A stretch of DNA of 64,000 nucleotides from Geobacillus subterraneus. GTDB taxonomy: Bacteria > Bacillota > Bacilli > Bacillales > Anoxybacillaceae. This document shows, piece by piece, positions 42,842-48,613 of this stretch (within the stretch, counting starts at the first letter, position 1; the number at the start of each line of letters is the position of its first letter). Position numbers and translations under genes: made by a program. Where the stretch lies: NCBI RefSeq assembly GCF_001618685.1, contig NZ_CP014342.1, positions 1,240,001 to 1,304,000 of the forward strand, read 5' to 3'. Under the pieces are notes generated by a model, which searched no databases, was not told the DNA's origin, and worked only from the letters and a program-made list of their open reading frames with translations.

Positions 42842-42893
42842 AAAGGAAAAAGGTGTCCCACAGACTAAAGGGTTCCGTTTTGAGGTGCAAAAA

Positions 42894-43158
42894 CAAAAAA
42901 ATGGTCGAAAATGACACTATTTTTGACAAATCAATTAGCATTCAATTAAATTAAAAAGCAGGGTAATTGCTAACGGATTCACATTAGGAAGGGAAAATGT
43001 TAAATAATACATCAAATAGCAAGGTAATTAGCAATACATTTAAACAAAAATAACAATATAAATCGCAAAGAAAAACGCTCAGATTTTCATTCTGAGCGTT
43101 TTTAATACTTATTAGTGTTTCTTATTGAACTGAAGATTCCCATTAATTAAAGAAATGT
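42894..43158. other. AT-rich left subterminal region of the transposon
   Basis: The gene-free stretch contains the AAAATGACACT motif shared with the right end, and an ATTCTGAGCG-type terminator hairpin (AACGCTCAGA/TCTGAGCGTTTTT near 43074-43100) pointing in from the left. No gene was seen. Confidence 0.55.
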
Positions 43159-43599
43159 TTAGTTCTTAACCTCAACAACAAATTCATCAAAAAATTTATT
43201 GTCGATAAACACTTTAATTTTCCACAGTCCTGGCGAAGGGAAAGATACTTGTGAACGAGCATGTCCTTGAATTTCTTTATCTTTCGGCGTTAACTTTTCA
43301 TCTTTAAACAGGATTGGATTGATTTCTTTATTGGTATCTTGGTGAACAGCCTTTACTTCCCATTCTTTATAAGAAATATCCTCCGAACCCCAAAAATGCC
43401 ACATCCACTTTTGTCCTTTTCCTGCTTTTACTTCACCACCGATGATGCCTATTTTTCCTTCCTTACCAAACATTTCACCATAGTCCGTAGAGAACGTTGG
43501 ACTAACTTCCCATTTTTCTTCTTTAGATTTCTCTACATTATTCGAACATCCCACCAAAAGAAGCAAAAATAAAAAAATACAAGAAATAAATTGTTTCAA
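43159..43599 (-). CDS. Putative lipoprotein, transposon cargo 1
   Basis: The 146-residue protein has a signal peptide with lipobox (CIFLFLLLLVGCSNN), so it is probably anchored outside the membrane. The mature part is beta-rich (KIGIIGGEVKAGKGQKWMWH, then SPGLWKIKVFIDNKFFDEFV), like an immunoglobulin-like domain that may bind a ligand. It resembles YhfM/DUF4871-type lipoproteins of Bacillus. Start after GGGAGGG. Codon use is AT-rich, unlike genes outside the transposon. Confidence 0.75.
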   Translation of the reverse strand: MKQFISCIFLFLLLLVGCSNNVEKSKEEKWEVSPTFSTDYGEMFGKEGKIGIIGGEVKAGKGQKWMWHFWGSEDISYKEWEVKAVHQDTNKEINPILFKDEKLTPKDKEIQGHARSQVSFPSPGLWKIKVFIDNKFFDEFVVEVKN

Positions 43600-43719
43600 C
43601 GTTTCTCCCTCCCTCTAGAAATGTTGATCTATCAAGGCTTTTCGGCCTCTCAGGGGTGTCCAAAAAATATTTTTCGACAAAATCCCTTACATCCTTTTTC
43701 AGTTTTGTGGATATCTTAC

Positions 43720-43990
43720 AGACCTAGGGTGCGCTTCGCGGCCACGTCTGGTTATATTTTCCTGCCGCGGGGGGAAGCATATTCGATGCACCCTTTGGAT
43801 CTCCGCGTCGCTGATGAGGACGAACCCTCCCATGTCTCCGGGCGTCTTCGCGCCAACATTCCCTCGTTCGGTCTCGTCATCAGGCGGAGGCCGGCCAAGC
43901 TCCTTTAGGGACTCAAGGTCGAATCGATGAAATCACGCCAGCTTCTCCGGTGTCATCTCGTTGTCCAACGATTCTTCCGTTCGCAGGGGG
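43720..43990 (-). ncRNA. Candidate seek/bridge RNA region of the nested IS110 element
   Basis: The non-coding region behind the transposase contains long-range complementarity: CTGATGAGGACGA near 43810 against TCGTCATCAG near 43874, and GGGTGC near 43729 against GCACCC near 43789. In IS1111-type elements the guide RNA is encoded at this end. The fold was judged by eye only. Confidence 0.4.
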
Positions 43991-43996
43991 GAGGCC

Positions 43997-45277
43997 TTAG
44001 GCCGCCCGTTGCACCTGGGACAAGACGTCCTGTTTCATTCGCTCCGCGTCAAACGCTTGTTTCTTCGTACAAATCGCAAACAGCACATTCAACAGCTTCC
44101 GGCACAAGGCGACGATGGACTGCTTTCCGGTCAGCGGATTGACGGATCGGGTCGTATAATACTCATGCAGCTCGCGAAACGCCTCGTTATGCCGAATCAG
44201 CGGAATCATCGCCCGAAACAGCACCGAGCGCAACCGTTTCCGTCCCCGTTTGGAGATGTGCTTTTGCCCTTTGCGCTGGCCGGAGGAGTTCTCCTTGAGC
44301 GTCAGGCCCGCCAACTTCACCAATTGGCGCGGGTCCCGATAATGGGCGAAGCTGCCGATCTCCGCCAGCAGATCGATGATCGTGGCGTCTCCCAACCCGT
44401 CGACCGTTTTCAACCATTGGTACTCCATCGTCGTTTGAACCAATGCCTTCAACTCGGCGTCCAGTGCAGCGATCTCCGCCTCCAATTGGCGGTATCGGCG
44501 GACGAGCGCGGCGATCTCAAACCGGGCCATCGCTGTCCCTTCCGTCACCCCAATCGAGTCCTTCGCGGTGTTGATCAACGCCTGAATTTTGGCCTTCTGC
44601 GGGCATTTCATCCCTTCGCTTTGCCGGTACACCTCAAGAAGCTCCTCCACCGTCCGGCCGGCCATATCAGCCGGAAGCGGCGTCCACTCCAACACCGAAA
44701 GCGCCGTTTTCCCCAAGTCACGAAACACGGTCCAAAACTCTGGAAAATACCGATCCGTCCAGCGGACGATCGCGTTTTTCACCGCCGTCTGTTCCTTGCG
44801 GAGCTTCTCTTTGAGCGTGCTCCCCACGCGCAAATCGGCTTCAATCTCGTGCAGCAGCCGGGGAACGAGGAATCGTCCGTCTTTTGCCAGTCTGGCAATG
44901 ACCAGGGCGTCTTTGGCGTCGTGTTTCGTCGGCAGGTTGTCATCAAGTTCTTTCGACCGGCACACATGCGCCGGGTTGACCATGACCAACGGGATCCCGT
45001 GCTCCTCGAGGAAGTAGGCCAGGTTCAACCAGTAGTGCCCGGTCGGCTCCACGGCGACGATCACCTCTGACTTCCCGAACGCTTGCATCGCCCCCTGAAT
45101 CGCTTTATACAGCTGTTGAAACCCCTCTTTCGACTGGAAGATCGGGAACGATTTGCGAAGCACGCGCCCCCGGTCATCCACGAAGCAGGCGTAGTGGGTT
45201 CGTTTCGCGATATCAATACCCACGACAAGCGTTTGTTCGGTTACTTGATCAATTTTATAGTTTTGTGTACAATTCAT
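43997..45277 (-). CDS. IS110-family transposase (IS1111-like layout)
   Basis: This 426-residue transposase differs from the one at 3221. The DEDD residues lie in VVGIDIAKRTHYAC, IVAVEPTGHYWLNLAYFLEE and LPTKHDAKDALVIARLAKDG. The C-terminal domain has TVDGLGDATIIDLLAEIGSF and the serine in SSGQRKGQKHISKRGRKRLR. It seems intact. Start at 45277 after AAGGAGG. Its presence inside the larger transposon shows a later nested insertion. Confidence 0.92.
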   Translation of the reverse strand: MNCTQNYKIDQVTEQTLVVGIDIAKRTHYACFVDDRGRVLRKSFPIFQSKEGFQQLYKAIQGAMQAFGKSEVIVAVEPTGHYWLNLAYFLEEHGIPLVMVNPAHVCRSKELDDNLPTKHDAKDALVIARLAKDGRFLVPRLLHEIEADLRVGSTLKEKLRKEQTAVKNAIVRWTDRYFPEFWTVFRDLGKTALSVLEWTPLPADMAGRTVEELLEVYRQSEGMKCPQKAKIQALINTAKDSIGVTEGTAMARFEIAALVRRYRQLEAEIAALDAELKALVQTTMEYQWLKTVDGLGDATIIDLLAEIGSFAHYRDPRQLVKLAGLTLKENSSGQRKGQKHISKRGRKRLRSVLFRAMIPLIRHNEAFRELHEYYTTRSVNPLTGKQSIVALCRKLLNVLFAICTKKQAFDAERMKQDVLSQVQRAA

Positions 45278-45466
45278 CTGAAGTCCTCCTTGGTATGGTG
45301 AGTGATGTGGTTGACACCCCTGTATCATACCAAGAGGGCTTTTTTTGATCAAGTCCCCGGAAAAGCTCCTAACGGGAATGCTCCTATCTTCATTTATAAA
45401 AGATGAATAAAGTGGTAAGTTTGTTTCTTTATTTATTGAACTAATCTCGTTAATACAATGACTAAA

Positions 45467-45874
45467 TTATTTTAAATCAGCCAATTTCCCTCCTGTCATA
45501 ATCTCAAACAAGAGAGCTGAGCTTTCTTTTGTTAATTGAGCATATTGACCATCTCTTTTAACAATTTCAAATTTGTCTTTATTAGGGCTAATCCAAACAT
45601 CATAAGTTACCGCTTTTGCTTCAATGGATTCATCTTTAGCAACAATTTGAAAGCTATAATCTGGTAAACGTGCCATTTGCACTTCGGCATTTTCCCAATC
45701 AATATTATTTAGTATTTTATTTAACTGTGAAACTTTTTTATTATCAGTGATTTCTTTAGAACCTTCATCACCAAAAACCACAATTTTTTGTTCTTTGTTT
45801 TTTATTTCACTTGCACATCCCGTTACTACAAACAAAAACACTATCATTAAAGAAAATAAAGCCTTAATTTTCAA
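45467..45874 (-). CDS. Putative lipoprotein, transposon cargo 2
   Basis: The 135-residue protein has a signal peptide and lipobox (LMIVFLFVVTGCASE). The mature domain has KIVVFGDEGSKEITDNKKVS and YDVWISPNKDKFEIVKRDGQ, a pattern seen in small Bacillus lipoproteins of unknown role. TTG start at 45874 follows AAGGGGG. AT-rich codon use matches the first lipoprotein. The two may originally have been neighbours, separated by the IS110 insertion. Confidence 0.72.
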   Translation of the reverse strand: MKIKALFSLMIVFLFVVTGCASEIKNKEQKIVVFGDEGSKEITDNKKVSQLNKILNNIDWENAEVQMARLPDYSFQIVAKDESIEAKAVTYDVWISPNKDKFEIVKRDGQYAQLTKESSALLFEIMTGGKLADLK

Positions 45875-46006
45875 ATGATTACCCCCTTTTCTAATTAGAC
45901 GCTAATTTATCTTTTAGAGTTTCGTATTAAAAAAATTAACAGAACCCATAATATCAACAGAGCTATTTAATATATATTTAACATTAAATACCAAATTCCC
46001 TTTAAA

Positions 46007-46035
46007 AAATCACCCTAATATCCATAGGGCGATTT
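46007..46035 (-). terminator. Terminator of the transposition module
   Basis: On the minus strand AAATCGCCCT pairs with AGGGTGATTT, followed by TTTTAAA. It overlaps the transposase stop codon at 46034. Confidence 0.75.
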
Positions 46036-46810
46036 ACTTAAAATAAATGATGTCATTCATGGTGAATTGTCGGTCGGTCATTCCAAGTCTTTGTGCAGGT
46101 GTCAGTTTCTTATCATCAAATGATTTATAAGGCAGACAAAAATTATAAAATGTGCGAAGAATCGTTAACGCATATTGAGCGTATTTCGGATTACAGTTGG
46201 AATAAATATAACTTTTCCCATCTCCTCTTGCTGTTACAAGAGGTCTTTCTAATATCGAAATCCTACGGCGAATTTGTTGCATAAACGCATTGACAGAATG
46301 GTCGTTCACGTTGAGAACCATATTTGCAATATCTTTTGGTTCGTAAGAAGATAAATCGGTTGTACAATCAACCATCCGACTTCCTTGGTCAACAGAAGGC
46401 AGGGGATGTTCAATCGGATTTTTCGCCCATTTCCGATGATATTTTCCATTGATATGGACCGTCTCATGAAATTGGTGAGTTTGAAATATCTCCTCTAATT
46501 TTAAAAAAGCAAGTTTGGATAAACTTTCTCCCACATATCCTTTACTAATTCCCCAAGCTCTTAAATCCATTCTTGCTTGCTGTGCTTCGTTAAATGCATC
46601 CGTTATGCTTTTGGAACGGTCGATTTTACAAAGAAAGTGATGAGCGTCTCCCAAACGAATTTCTTTTGAAAATACACGAAAAAGGGAAGTCATAATCGAA
46701 TAATCTTCATCGGTAATAAACCTCCATTCGCTTGCATTTACCATTTGTTTGATTAACCATAAATGTGCCATTGTTGTGTATGTCGAATTTACATGACATC
46801 CATCAATGTA
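46034..46810 (-). CDS. Transposase, -1 frame part (C-terminal catalytic half)
   Basis: This part continues the 46789-47976 frame after a presumed -1 shift at AAAAAA (46811-46816). The first residues after the slip are YIDGCHVNSTYTT, then MAHLWLIKQMVNASEWRFIT and DEDYSIMTSLFRVF, carrying a late catalytic aspartate, with helical segments ending ERPLVTARGDGKSYIYS. The motif HVNSTYTTxAHL is shared by IS1-like insertion element proteins. An internal ATG at 46771 has no ribosome site, which favours frameshifting. The fusion would be about 647 residues. Confidence 0.72.
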   Translation of the reverse strand, partial: YIDGCHVNSTYTTMAHLWLIKQMVNASEWRFITDEDYSIMTSLFRVFSKEIRLGDAHHFLCKIDRSKSITDAFNEAQQARMDLRAWGISKGYVGESLSKLAFLKLEEIFQTHQFHETVHINGKYHRKWAKNPIEHPLPSVDQGSRMVDCTTDLSSYEPKDIANMVLNVNDHSVNAFMQQIRRRISILERPLVTARGDGKSYIYSNCNPKYAQYALTILRTFYNFCLPYKSFDDKKLTPAQRLGMTDRQFTMNDIIYFK

Positions 46811-47976
46811 TTTTTTCTTCTTTCAAATTCATTTCGATATTGAATGTCTAACGGTGTGTCGTTTGGTGATGGCGGCGATGGTGCGTAAGAAAAACGCAAT
46901 CTCGCGTTCTTTCGAGCATATTCATATAAGCAGTCTTCTTTATATAACCATGTATCTTTTTCAACATCTTCAAGTGAAATATTCCAATCATATGCCACAT
47001 CCGACCTAAAGACATATCTCGAAAATACTTCACTCGTTACAACGATATGGGTAGGAAAATGTTTATCCTCTAAGTTGTTGTATCTCCCGTTTGCTTCACC
47101 CTTTTTACGGACATTGTTTAAAAAATAAATCATTTTATCGGTATTTAACCACATATACTGAAATGACTTCTTTTCAAAAGCTTGTGTTTCATGTCGTTCC
47201 AAAAATTCCAAACATCTTCTATACAGCCACTCAAGTTTTTGGTAATACGTTTGAGAACCGATTTGAAGGATTTCACATGTACGTTTAACAGGAATTCGAT
47301 TGATGATTTGTTTTGCAAATATCGGCAAGATGTCATTCCTTTTTTGATGATACCGAAATGTTTCTTCACGATTGGGAAGAACATTCGCGATTTTTCTACA
47401 CGTTTTACATTGCCATTTTTGCGATTTTCCGCTGCTTTTTCCTCTTCGATAAAATTCACTCGGATGAGTAAATGGGGTGACACTACTTTTTAAACAACCA
47501 TCACGATGAAATTGGTAATCAGGTTCCCAATCTTTTACTTTATCGTTGGTCGCTAATCGTTTGATTTCTTCTGCAACAGACCAATTGGAATAAGGTTCTG
47601 TTGTACAATTCCATGTTACCCCAATATGTGGTCGGATAGGGTCTGAGTTACACACAAAACGTTGACTGGCATGTTTGCCGCTACCGCTCATTTTGTATCT
47701 GCTTGGTTTATATCTGGCATTTTCAAATCTTTCTTGAGGCAAACCGAACCATTTACAAAATGGATTGGTACAAGTGTTCATTTGGATTTCAAATGTCTGA
47801 CCGTTGTAATTGACTTTCACAGGTCTAAAAAGAACATCCCGATATTTTTTAGCAAAATCGATACGACTTAGCAGGGAATAGTCTTTCTGTCGCGAATTTA
47901 TTTCCATATCTGTAATGGGTAGGTCGATGGTTACAATTTGGTCATTCATTGTTGCTAATCGTTTCAGTTTAGCCAA
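46789..47976 (-). CDS. Transposase, zero frame part (zinc-binding N-terminal half)
   Basis: This 395-residue frame has paired cysteine motifs: MNTCTNPFCKWFGLPQERF early and KWQCKTCRKIANVLPNREET later, likely zinc-binding DNA recognition modules. A helix-turn-helix (IPVKRTCEILQIGSQTYYQK) and the first acid of a DDE domain (FQYMWLNTDKMIYFLNN) follow. It ends only 20 bp after the A_AAA_AAT heptamer at 46810-46816. It resembles unclassified insertion element proteins related to IS1. It overlaps the small upstream ORF by 8 bp. Confidence 0.72.
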   Translation of the reverse strand: MAKLKRLATMNDQIVTIDLPITDMEINSRQKDYSLLSRIDFAKKYRDVLFRPVKVNYNGQTFEIQMNTCTNPFCKWFGLPQERFENARYKPSRYKMSGSGKHASQRFVCNSDPIRPHIGVTWNCTTEPYSNWSVAEEIKRLATNDKVKDWEPDYQFHRDGCLKSSVTPFTHPSEFYRRGKSSGKSQKWQCKTCRKIANVLPNREETFRYHQKRNDILPIFAKQIINRIPVKRTCEILQIGSQTYYQKLEWLYRRCLEFLERHETQAFEKKSFQYMWLNTDKMIYFLNNVRKKGEANGRYNNLEDKHFPTHIVVTSEVFSRYVFRSDVAYDWNISLEDVEKDTWLYKEDCLYEYARKNARLRFSYAPSPPSPNDTPLDIQYRNEFERRKNTLMDVM

Positions 47977-48220
47977 TCATTTCTTCCTCCTCATCGGTAT
48001 CCGAAAAAATTTGGGAGATAGCTCGTTTATTACGCCGTTTATTTTTTAGCCATTCTATAAATCCAGGGTCATCCCGAAGATTTTTTAAGAACATATCAAC
48101 GACTTCATCTTCGGTGTAACCTGTGTATTGTGCATAATATTTTACGATATTTTTCGTTTGTTCAGATACGGACCAATTGGGTTTAACGTCTAGTTTTTCT
48201 TTCGGTTTGATATATTGCAT
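47969..48220 (-). CDS. Small accessory ORF of the transposon
   Basis: The 83-residue protein is helical with SVSEQTKNIVKYYAQYTGYT and EDEVVDMFLKNLRDDPGFIE. It looks like a small DNA-binding or regulatory protein (ribbon-helix-helix-like), ending in an acidic tail DTDEEEE. Start after GAAGGAGGG. The overlap with the transposase indicates an operon. I do not recognise the family. Confidence 0.65.
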   Translation of the reverse strand: MQYIKPKEKLDVKPNWSVSEQTKNIVKYYAQYTGYTEDEVVDMFLKNLRDDPGFIEWLKNKRRNKRAISQIFSDTDEEEEMIG

Positions 48221-48452
48221 TAAAAATGCCCTCCTTCAAATGACATTGAAAATGGCAATGAAATTGACATATCAATTGGCAAAGGTCAACCTCTCTTCAT
48301 AAATTATTTCCATCTTCTACATTCCTTAAACATTTCCTTCCAAAAACAGTGTCATTTTTAATAAAAATTGAAATAAATGCTGTTATAACAATAAAAAATG
48401 ACGTACCAGAATGGTTGTCATTTGGCACGTCATTTTACATGTCAATTTTTTA
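48221..48452. other. Right subterminal region of the transposon
   Basis: It contains repeated TGACAT/ATGTCA-type motifs and a palindrome with 14-bp arms, AAAATGACGTACCA (48395-48408) and TGGCACGTCATTTT (48423-48436), one mismatch. These are plausible transposase-binding sites and the promoter region of the module. No gene. Confidence 0.55.
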
Positions 48453-48613
48453 TTTTGCACCCGAAAACGGAACCCGTTACCCACAGACGGGGCACCTTTT
48501 GGTTGTGCACATATAAACGGAAACGCAGGTTTGCCGAAAGAAAAGCGCTCTTTTCCCCTCTTCGCCGCTATTTGATCCACATAGGAGGCGGACGGCCGCA
48601 AAGCCCATCCTTT

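Follow-up and report, generated by a model that had tools for sequence, protein, structure and literature searches.

The window analysed here, a stretch of 64,000 bp from Geobacillus subterraneus (assembly GCF_001618685.1, contig NZ_CP014342.1, positions 1,240,001 to 1,304,000), carries directly behind a DUF302 gene a transposon that belongs to the same family as Tn7491, a trimethoprim-resistance transposon, and members of this family usually appear to have inserted into hairpins that resemble intrinsic terminators. In the host genome of 3.47 Mb, the element occupies positions 42866-48479 of the window, i.e. 5,614 bp including a nested insertion sequence (IS) of the IS110 family. Its limits and ends are as follows:

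42866..48479, no strand assigned: the whole transposon, supported by inverted ends, a 9-bp direct repeat and empty sites in congeners
42857..42865, no strand assigned: left copy of the 9-bp target duplication, CCCACAGAC
48480..48488, no strand assigned: right copy of the 9-bp target duplication, CCCACAGAC
42866..42892, + strand: far-end terminal inverted repeat, TAAAGGGTTCCGTTTTGAGGTGCAAAA
48453..48479, - strand: transposase-end terminal inverted repeat, TAACGGGTTCCGTTTTCGGGTGCAAAA, read on this strand

The two copies of CCCACAGAC form a perfect direct repeat that bounds the element, which begins with TAAAGGG... at 42866 and ends with ...CCCGTTA at 48479. The termini carry one sequence, TAA(A/C)GGGTTCCGTTTTNNGGTGCAAAA, in inverted orientation; the inverted arms (42866-42899 and 48446-48479, 34 nt each) are 85% complementary, the two ends are identical at 25 of 30 positions, and their common core, GGGTTCCGTTTT, has only two exact occurrences in the genome, one per end. 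When the flanks are joined with a single copy of the repeat, the resulting element-free site matches four congeneric genomes at 98-99% over 377-378 bp, and further element-free loci match at 82-83% (three loci) and 75% (one locus). Moreover, the G+C content is 41% in the element and 53% in the flanks. In total, we conclude that the element is real, with related ends, a target duplication and empty sites. The first-pass annotation of this DNA had described an AT-rich island with inverted termini at 42852-48496; the island, the termini and the presence of an element were borne out, while the true limits lie slightly inside those proposed.

The element contains the following genes and the nested IS:

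47969..48220, - strand: accessory open reading frame 1 (ORF1), 83 aa, ribbon-helix-helix-like, conserved in 25 aligned relatives
46789..47976, - strand: N-terminal part of the transposase, 395 codons, with zinc-binding cysteines and the first putative catalytic Asp; the frame is broken at its end
46034..46771, - strand: C-terminal part of the transposase, 245 codons in another frame, with the remaining putative catalytic residues
45467..45874, - strand: cargo, lipoprotein-like, 135 aa, with a distant match to cargo of the L048 element (27%, E 1.6e-7)
43608..45385, - strand: nested IS110-family IS, transposase at 43997-45352; limits taken from other copies, start +/- ~5 bases
43159..43599, - strand: cargo, DUF4871 lipoprotein-like, 146 aa, with homologues as cargo of the L043, L059 and L070 elements

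Two lipoprotein-like passenger genes and a nested IS had been noticed in the first pass and are indeed present, with the IS110 copy between the two genes; the three overlapping genes proposed for the transposition module, by contrast, are two, i.e. the accessory ORF1 and a frame-broken transposase. The break lies near an A-rich run around 46,800. In relatives L028-L031, the transposase is a single unbroken frame of ~650 codons, and in other relatives it is broken or truncated. Judged from these comparisons, the transposase in the window looks like a broken copy of a gene of which intact copies exist elsewhere, and because its frame is broken, the element is probably immobile. A programmed frameshift in the A-rich run was considered and set aside, as intact relatives read straight through, which falls short of proof. 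A second, degenerate remnant of the transposase, comprising only the C-terminal part, lies at 368070-368722 of the genome (L154).

Homologues of the transposase were detected in 13 of 61 relatives, 22 of 398 class-sampled genomes and 10 of 398 phylum-sampled genomes (the window's own genome being counted in each, and many of the matches being fragments), at 46 loci in the species collection, and in 114 of 72,556 plasmid records, among them 90 from Enterococcus, 9 from Staphylococcus, 4 from Lactococcus and 3 from Listeria. In all 12 enterococcal, staphylococcal, listerial or lactococcal plasmid records inspected, dfrG is found beside the homologous transposase. Both ends and a 9- or 10-bp duplication could be defined at 43 sites, of which 40 are in Bacillota and 3 are in Pseudomonadota; the duplication is 9 bp at 36 sites (at L072 with 8/9 matching) and 10 bp at 7, and the elements measure 1,886 to 7,864 bp. 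The ends are clearly related among the Bacillota sites; in the three Pseudomonadota elements, which are ~2 kb long and consist of the transposase alone, without ORF1, the relationship can still be recognised. The Tn7491-like family is defined here by a homologous transposase of ~650 aa, TAANNNGTTC-type ends whose inner part resembles CAAAA or GAAAA, a 9-bp target duplication and a small ORF upstream of the transposase; the window element displays all four traits, with its transposase in two pieces. We conclude that the family is real and little described.

The 43 sites derive from a first set of 50 loci scanned, 35 of which were above score and 30 of which were kept after removal of L064, L081 and L083, which have both ends and no direct duplication, and of L076 and L077, which gave spurious ends. 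At L054, a spurious end pair was replaced by hand with ends seen in an earlier scan. The 15 loci below score include truncated contigs, transposase fragments and loci with one end seen. To this set were added 6 of 9 typical loci (of the other three, L144 duplicates the site of L055, and no ends were obtained for L149 and L152), 3/3 Pseudomonadota loci and 4/4 loci of a further set; the count leaves out L153, L154, L174 and L175. The sites are not independent, L054, L055 and L084 being one element at three sites and L172 and L173 one element present twice in one genome. At L064 (9477-12571), the 9-bp flanks are inverted, not direct, around a long palindrome.

The empty site of a congener (L087) can be folded into a hairpin with a 12-bp stem, a 7-nt loop and a 3' arm ending in TTTT (-19.1 kcal/mol; z -2.66 against shuffles, 3/200 of which were equally good), as would be expected for the terminator of the DUF302 gene. 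The corresponding arms in the window would lie on either side of the element:

42848..42859, + strand: left arm of the terminator-like hairpin that follows the DUF302 gene and is split by the element; limits by analogy with L087, last 3 bases in the duplication
48489..48500, + strand: right arm of this hairpin, with TTTT as its last bases; limits likewise by analogy with L087

The nine duplicated bases consist of the hairpin loop and the uppermost three bases of one arm. The element lies directly behind the DUF302 gene because it inserted into the terminator-like hairpin there; this position was recorded in the first pass, which overlooked both the hairpin as the insertion point and the direct repeat.

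The same arrangement recurs across the family. The stem score around the duplication centre is at or above the 95th percentile at 32/43 sites and at or above the 99th at 29/43 (Mann-Whitney p 6e-18) in comparison with 8,600 windows from the same loci; as these windows include coding positions, a local control was added, in which 29/43 sites rank among the best 1% and 31/43 among the best 5% of positions up to 150 bp away. When the right flanks were permuted among sites, which keeps the composition, the mean stem score dropped from 10.1 to 4.3 (maximum 5.2; 0/300 permutations reached the observed value). Moreover, the signal is confined to shifts of 0 +/- 2 bp from the duplication centre. The 36 sites with 9-bp repeats have A-rich positions on the left and T-rich positions on the right at a fixed distance, as in intrinsic terminators. 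The nearest mechanically called ORFs are convergent at 21 sites, tandem at 17 and divergent at 5; since this call is blind to ORFs split by an element, it does not establish an intergenic position for every site, and at L167 an annotated neighbouring gene extends 24 bases into the element. Altogether, these comparisons indicate that the rejoined target is usually a hairpin like that of an intrinsic terminator, its loop spanned by the duplicated bases; the preference is strong and not absolute. Because the stems vary in sequence between sites while complementarity is kept, the data suggest that targets are chosen by shape rather than by sequence.

Further features lie inside the ends:

48350..48452, - strand: iteron-like motifs at the transposase end (offsets 32, 44, 56 and 122)
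42905..43055, + strand: iteron-like motifs at the far end (offsets 43, 67, 148, 160 and 182)
48388..48436 (approximate), - strand: terminator-like hairpin at the transposase end, facing inward, stem score 14
43071..43107, + strand: terminator-like hairpin close to the far end, with perfect arms of 13 bp flanked by A- and T-runs

In the 40 Bacillota sites pooled, subterminal repeats have a period of 12 bp with a 24-bp harmonic (z 14.8 at the transposase end and 12.2 at the far end, against mononucleotide shuffles); the iteron motif count is zero in the three Pseudomonadota elements, which are those without ORF1. For the structural model of ORF1 (predicted local distance difference test, pLDDT, 85), CopG, Arc and ParD folds were frequent among the Foldseek matches, with a best E of 0.74, and on this basis ORF1 is likely a ribbon-helix-helix protein. 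The Foldseek list for the transposase model (pLDDT 78) is led by Mos1 and Tn5, with probabilities of 0.98 for Tn5 and 0.92 for ISCth4 and E-values of 0.002-0.06. Residues D277, D424 and E578 are invariant across an eight-row transposase alignment spanning two phyla, which fits a DDE triad. In Pfam, no family reached the cut-off for the transposase pieces of the window or four relatives; YkoP, which matched the window transposase below its cut-off (E 0.00086), was dropped, being absent in the four relatives scanned. A sequence search against solved structures gave two matches, both unrelated (best E 0.012).

Terminator-like hairpins at the transposase end face inward at 32/43 sites and outward at 7/43, compared to 35/860 control windows. 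Inward terminators at both ends were considered as well and borne out for the transposase end only; the far-end hairpin at 43071-43107, beyond the end of the region covered by the terminator scan, was found as an inverted-repeat pair.

The cargo is exchangeable. The transposases of L047 and L059 are 98.5% identical, and the cargo is an ABC transporter pair in the former and, in the latter, a DUF4871-like protein (24.9 bits, cut-off 25) that is 38% identical to the DUF4871 protein of the window. Related lipoproteins recur as cargo in the window, L043, L059 and L070 elements. Other cargo includes an MFS transporter, a GNAT acetyltransferase, a GerA/GerB/GerC-type germination operon, SpoIIP with an ECF sigma factor, PadR with a HAAS-like protein, a HIT protein, an aldo/keto reductase, a SUKH protein and DHFR, and several of the 40 cargo proteins scanned are without any match. 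The germination set is carried by the element of Bacillus litorisediminis (L060, 12219-15956). Related ends with other cargo and empty sites in relatives, both named in the first-pass annotation as things to look for, were found.

The nested IS110 is one of seven full-length, near-identical copies in the genome (the others are L187-L192), and because of these copies it was probably recently active. At 1103349-1107050 of the genome, another IS110 copy is flanked by two pieces that resemble the DUF302 gene, each in a part complementary to the other; they are possibly one interrupted paralogue.

The transposase had been called IS1-like and zinc-binding, and the element a fit to no IS family that could be named; as far as this can be tested, the description stands. 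The NCBIfam model transpos_IS1 gave 18.1 bits for the window piece and 17.9-41.0 bits for relatives where shown (cut-off 100), and the zinc-domain model shared by IS1 and IS1595 gave 14.9-24.3 bits where shown (cut-off 28); neither cut-off was reached, and the likeness to IS1 and IS1595 consists of weak matches in the zinc-ribbon region of the family transposase. A 9-bp duplication is usual for IS1, and the IS1 transposase is short and made by a programmed frameshift. By contrast, intact relatives of the window transposase have ~650 codons in one frame.

The nearest precedent for the target is IS1272/TnSha1 of the IS1182 family, which inserts into hairpins, several of them confirmed terminators, without a sequence consensus, and of which TnSha1 has a passenger gene (PMC4923244). 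IS1272 inserts bluntly into the stem and deletes part of the hairpin without duplication (PMC4923244). Hairpin insertion is common to IS1272 and the window family; unlike IS1272, however, the window family duplicates 9 or 10 bp and, in the window, nothing was lost. The duplication and the empty sites do not agree with stem deletion, and no scan made here gave an IS1182-family match for the window transposase. TnGBS and related ISs of the Mutator superfamily insert upstream of promoters, at 15-17 bases from the -35 box (PMC3942029), and TnGBS/ISLre2/ISKra4 resemble the window family as DDE transposons that target a transcription signal (PMC3942029). Measured against this literature, as far as it was accessible, the terminator-hairpin target is new for the family described here, hairpin targeting as such being already known from IS1272.

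Tn7491 carries dfrG and was first seen within Tn6198 of Listeria monocytogenes; it is printed with an inverted repeat and a 9-bp duplication, and one copy was placed between convergent genes (PMC10763498). The abstract of this paper gives the name as Tn4791, the body mostly as Tn7491. Tn7491 resembles the window element in its homologous transposase, small upstream ORF, cargo behind the transposase and 9-bp duplication, and its printed end, TAAGTAGTTCAGTTTTGGAGTACAAAA, agrees with the transposase end of the window element at 20/27 positions by eye; it differs in its cargo. Tn7491 is a member of the family of the window element and the only named member found in print within the sources covered. 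The element had been called undescribed, which is right in so far as the family is little described and wrong in that its dfrG-carrying member had already been published. In the available parts of PMC10763498, neither a family nor a terminator target is described for Tn7491, and in the open-licence literature, covered as titles, abstract starts and passages and hence not proof of absence, we found no description of terminator targeting by Tn7491.

Overall, we consider it likely that the element belongs to a Tn7491 family of cargo-bearing DDE transposons that usually hit terminator-like hairpins and recognise them by shape. In the mechanism that we propose, a transposase with an RNase H fold (D277-D424-E578) would pair both ends and carry out two strand transfers 9 bp apart, roughly symmetric about the dyad of the terminator and across its apical loop. 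The transposase would read a shape, presented either by the dyad arms of a symmetric duplex without extrusion or by DNA extruded as a hairpin or cruciform. ORF1, the putative ribbon-helix-helix protein, would bind the 12-bp iterons and help to assemble the ends. The host terminator is split, and the end hairpins of the element may block read-through from the host and in this way limit the cost of insertion, for which the support comes from the transposase end only.

Several observations weigh against this explanation. Twelve of the 43 sites are outside the local top 5% for a centred hairpin, among which L060, L068 and L171 still fold at -18 to -37 kcal/mol. The picture in Pseudomonadota is uneven, with a strong hairpin 3.5 bp off centre at L167 and none at L168 and L169. 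L064, L081 and L083 have both ends without the direct duplication. The far-end hairpins have no direction (23 inward, 24 outward), and all Foldseek E-values for ORF1 and the transposase exceed 0.001. Finally, 12 Tn7491 loci on plasmids (ten plus L083 and L084) reduced to 8 different sites at which the repeats are intact, L176 and L182 sharing one, and only 4 of these 8 have strong arm pairing, the pairing at the other 4 being weak or involving a large loop; the hairpin preference is perhaps weaker in Tn7491. In L083, L180 and L183, dfrG element copies on enterococcal plasmids lack a target duplication and are probably rearranged; nine bases at the left end are common to L083, L180 and L179.

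A more far-reaching proposal, which we regard as possible and put forward tentatively, is that throughout a cross-phylum family the transposase recognises the extruded terminator hairpin or cruciform, cuts on both sides of the loop and substitutes a terminator of its own for the broken one, so that the cargo, a clinically important resistance gene included, would reach safe sites insulated from transcription. Alternatively, the transposase could read the A-tract/T-tract dyad of terminators as sequence or composition rather than a folded structure. The A-rich left and T-rich right positions at the 36 sites agree with this, as do several Tn7491 sites with A/T-rich arms and no G+C stem; however, the permutation of right flanks retains the tracts and nevertheless lowers the stem score from 10.1 to 4.3, and we regard this alternative as unlikely. 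Recruitment of the transposase by a paused RNA polymerase, a termination factor or an R-loop appears improbable: the targets do resemble intrinsic terminators, where polymerase pauses, and the promoter-directed TnGBS/ISLre2 transposons provide a precedent (PMC3942029), but no conserved orientation relative to transcription was established, the neighbouring ORFs being arranged in all three ways. Broad insertion followed by persistence only between genes, where harm is least, would account for the low-harm positions between convergent ORFs at 21/43 sites; it leaves unexplained why 29/43 sites are in the local top 1% and why the signal is gone beyond a 2-bp shift, and is very improbable. Finally, that the inverted repeats occur by chance around unrelated genes, for which the non-identity of the two ends could be cited, is refuted by the exact 9-bp repeat, the empty sites and the 42 other sites with similar ends.

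Intrinsic terminators are numerous and offer natural safe harbours in the space between genes. If insertion of the Tn7491 family into terminator hairpins is correct, clean 9-bp duplication in these hairpins together with exchangeable cargo would explain how the elements spread at low cost. The family also supplies an evolutionary context for the dfrG transposon.

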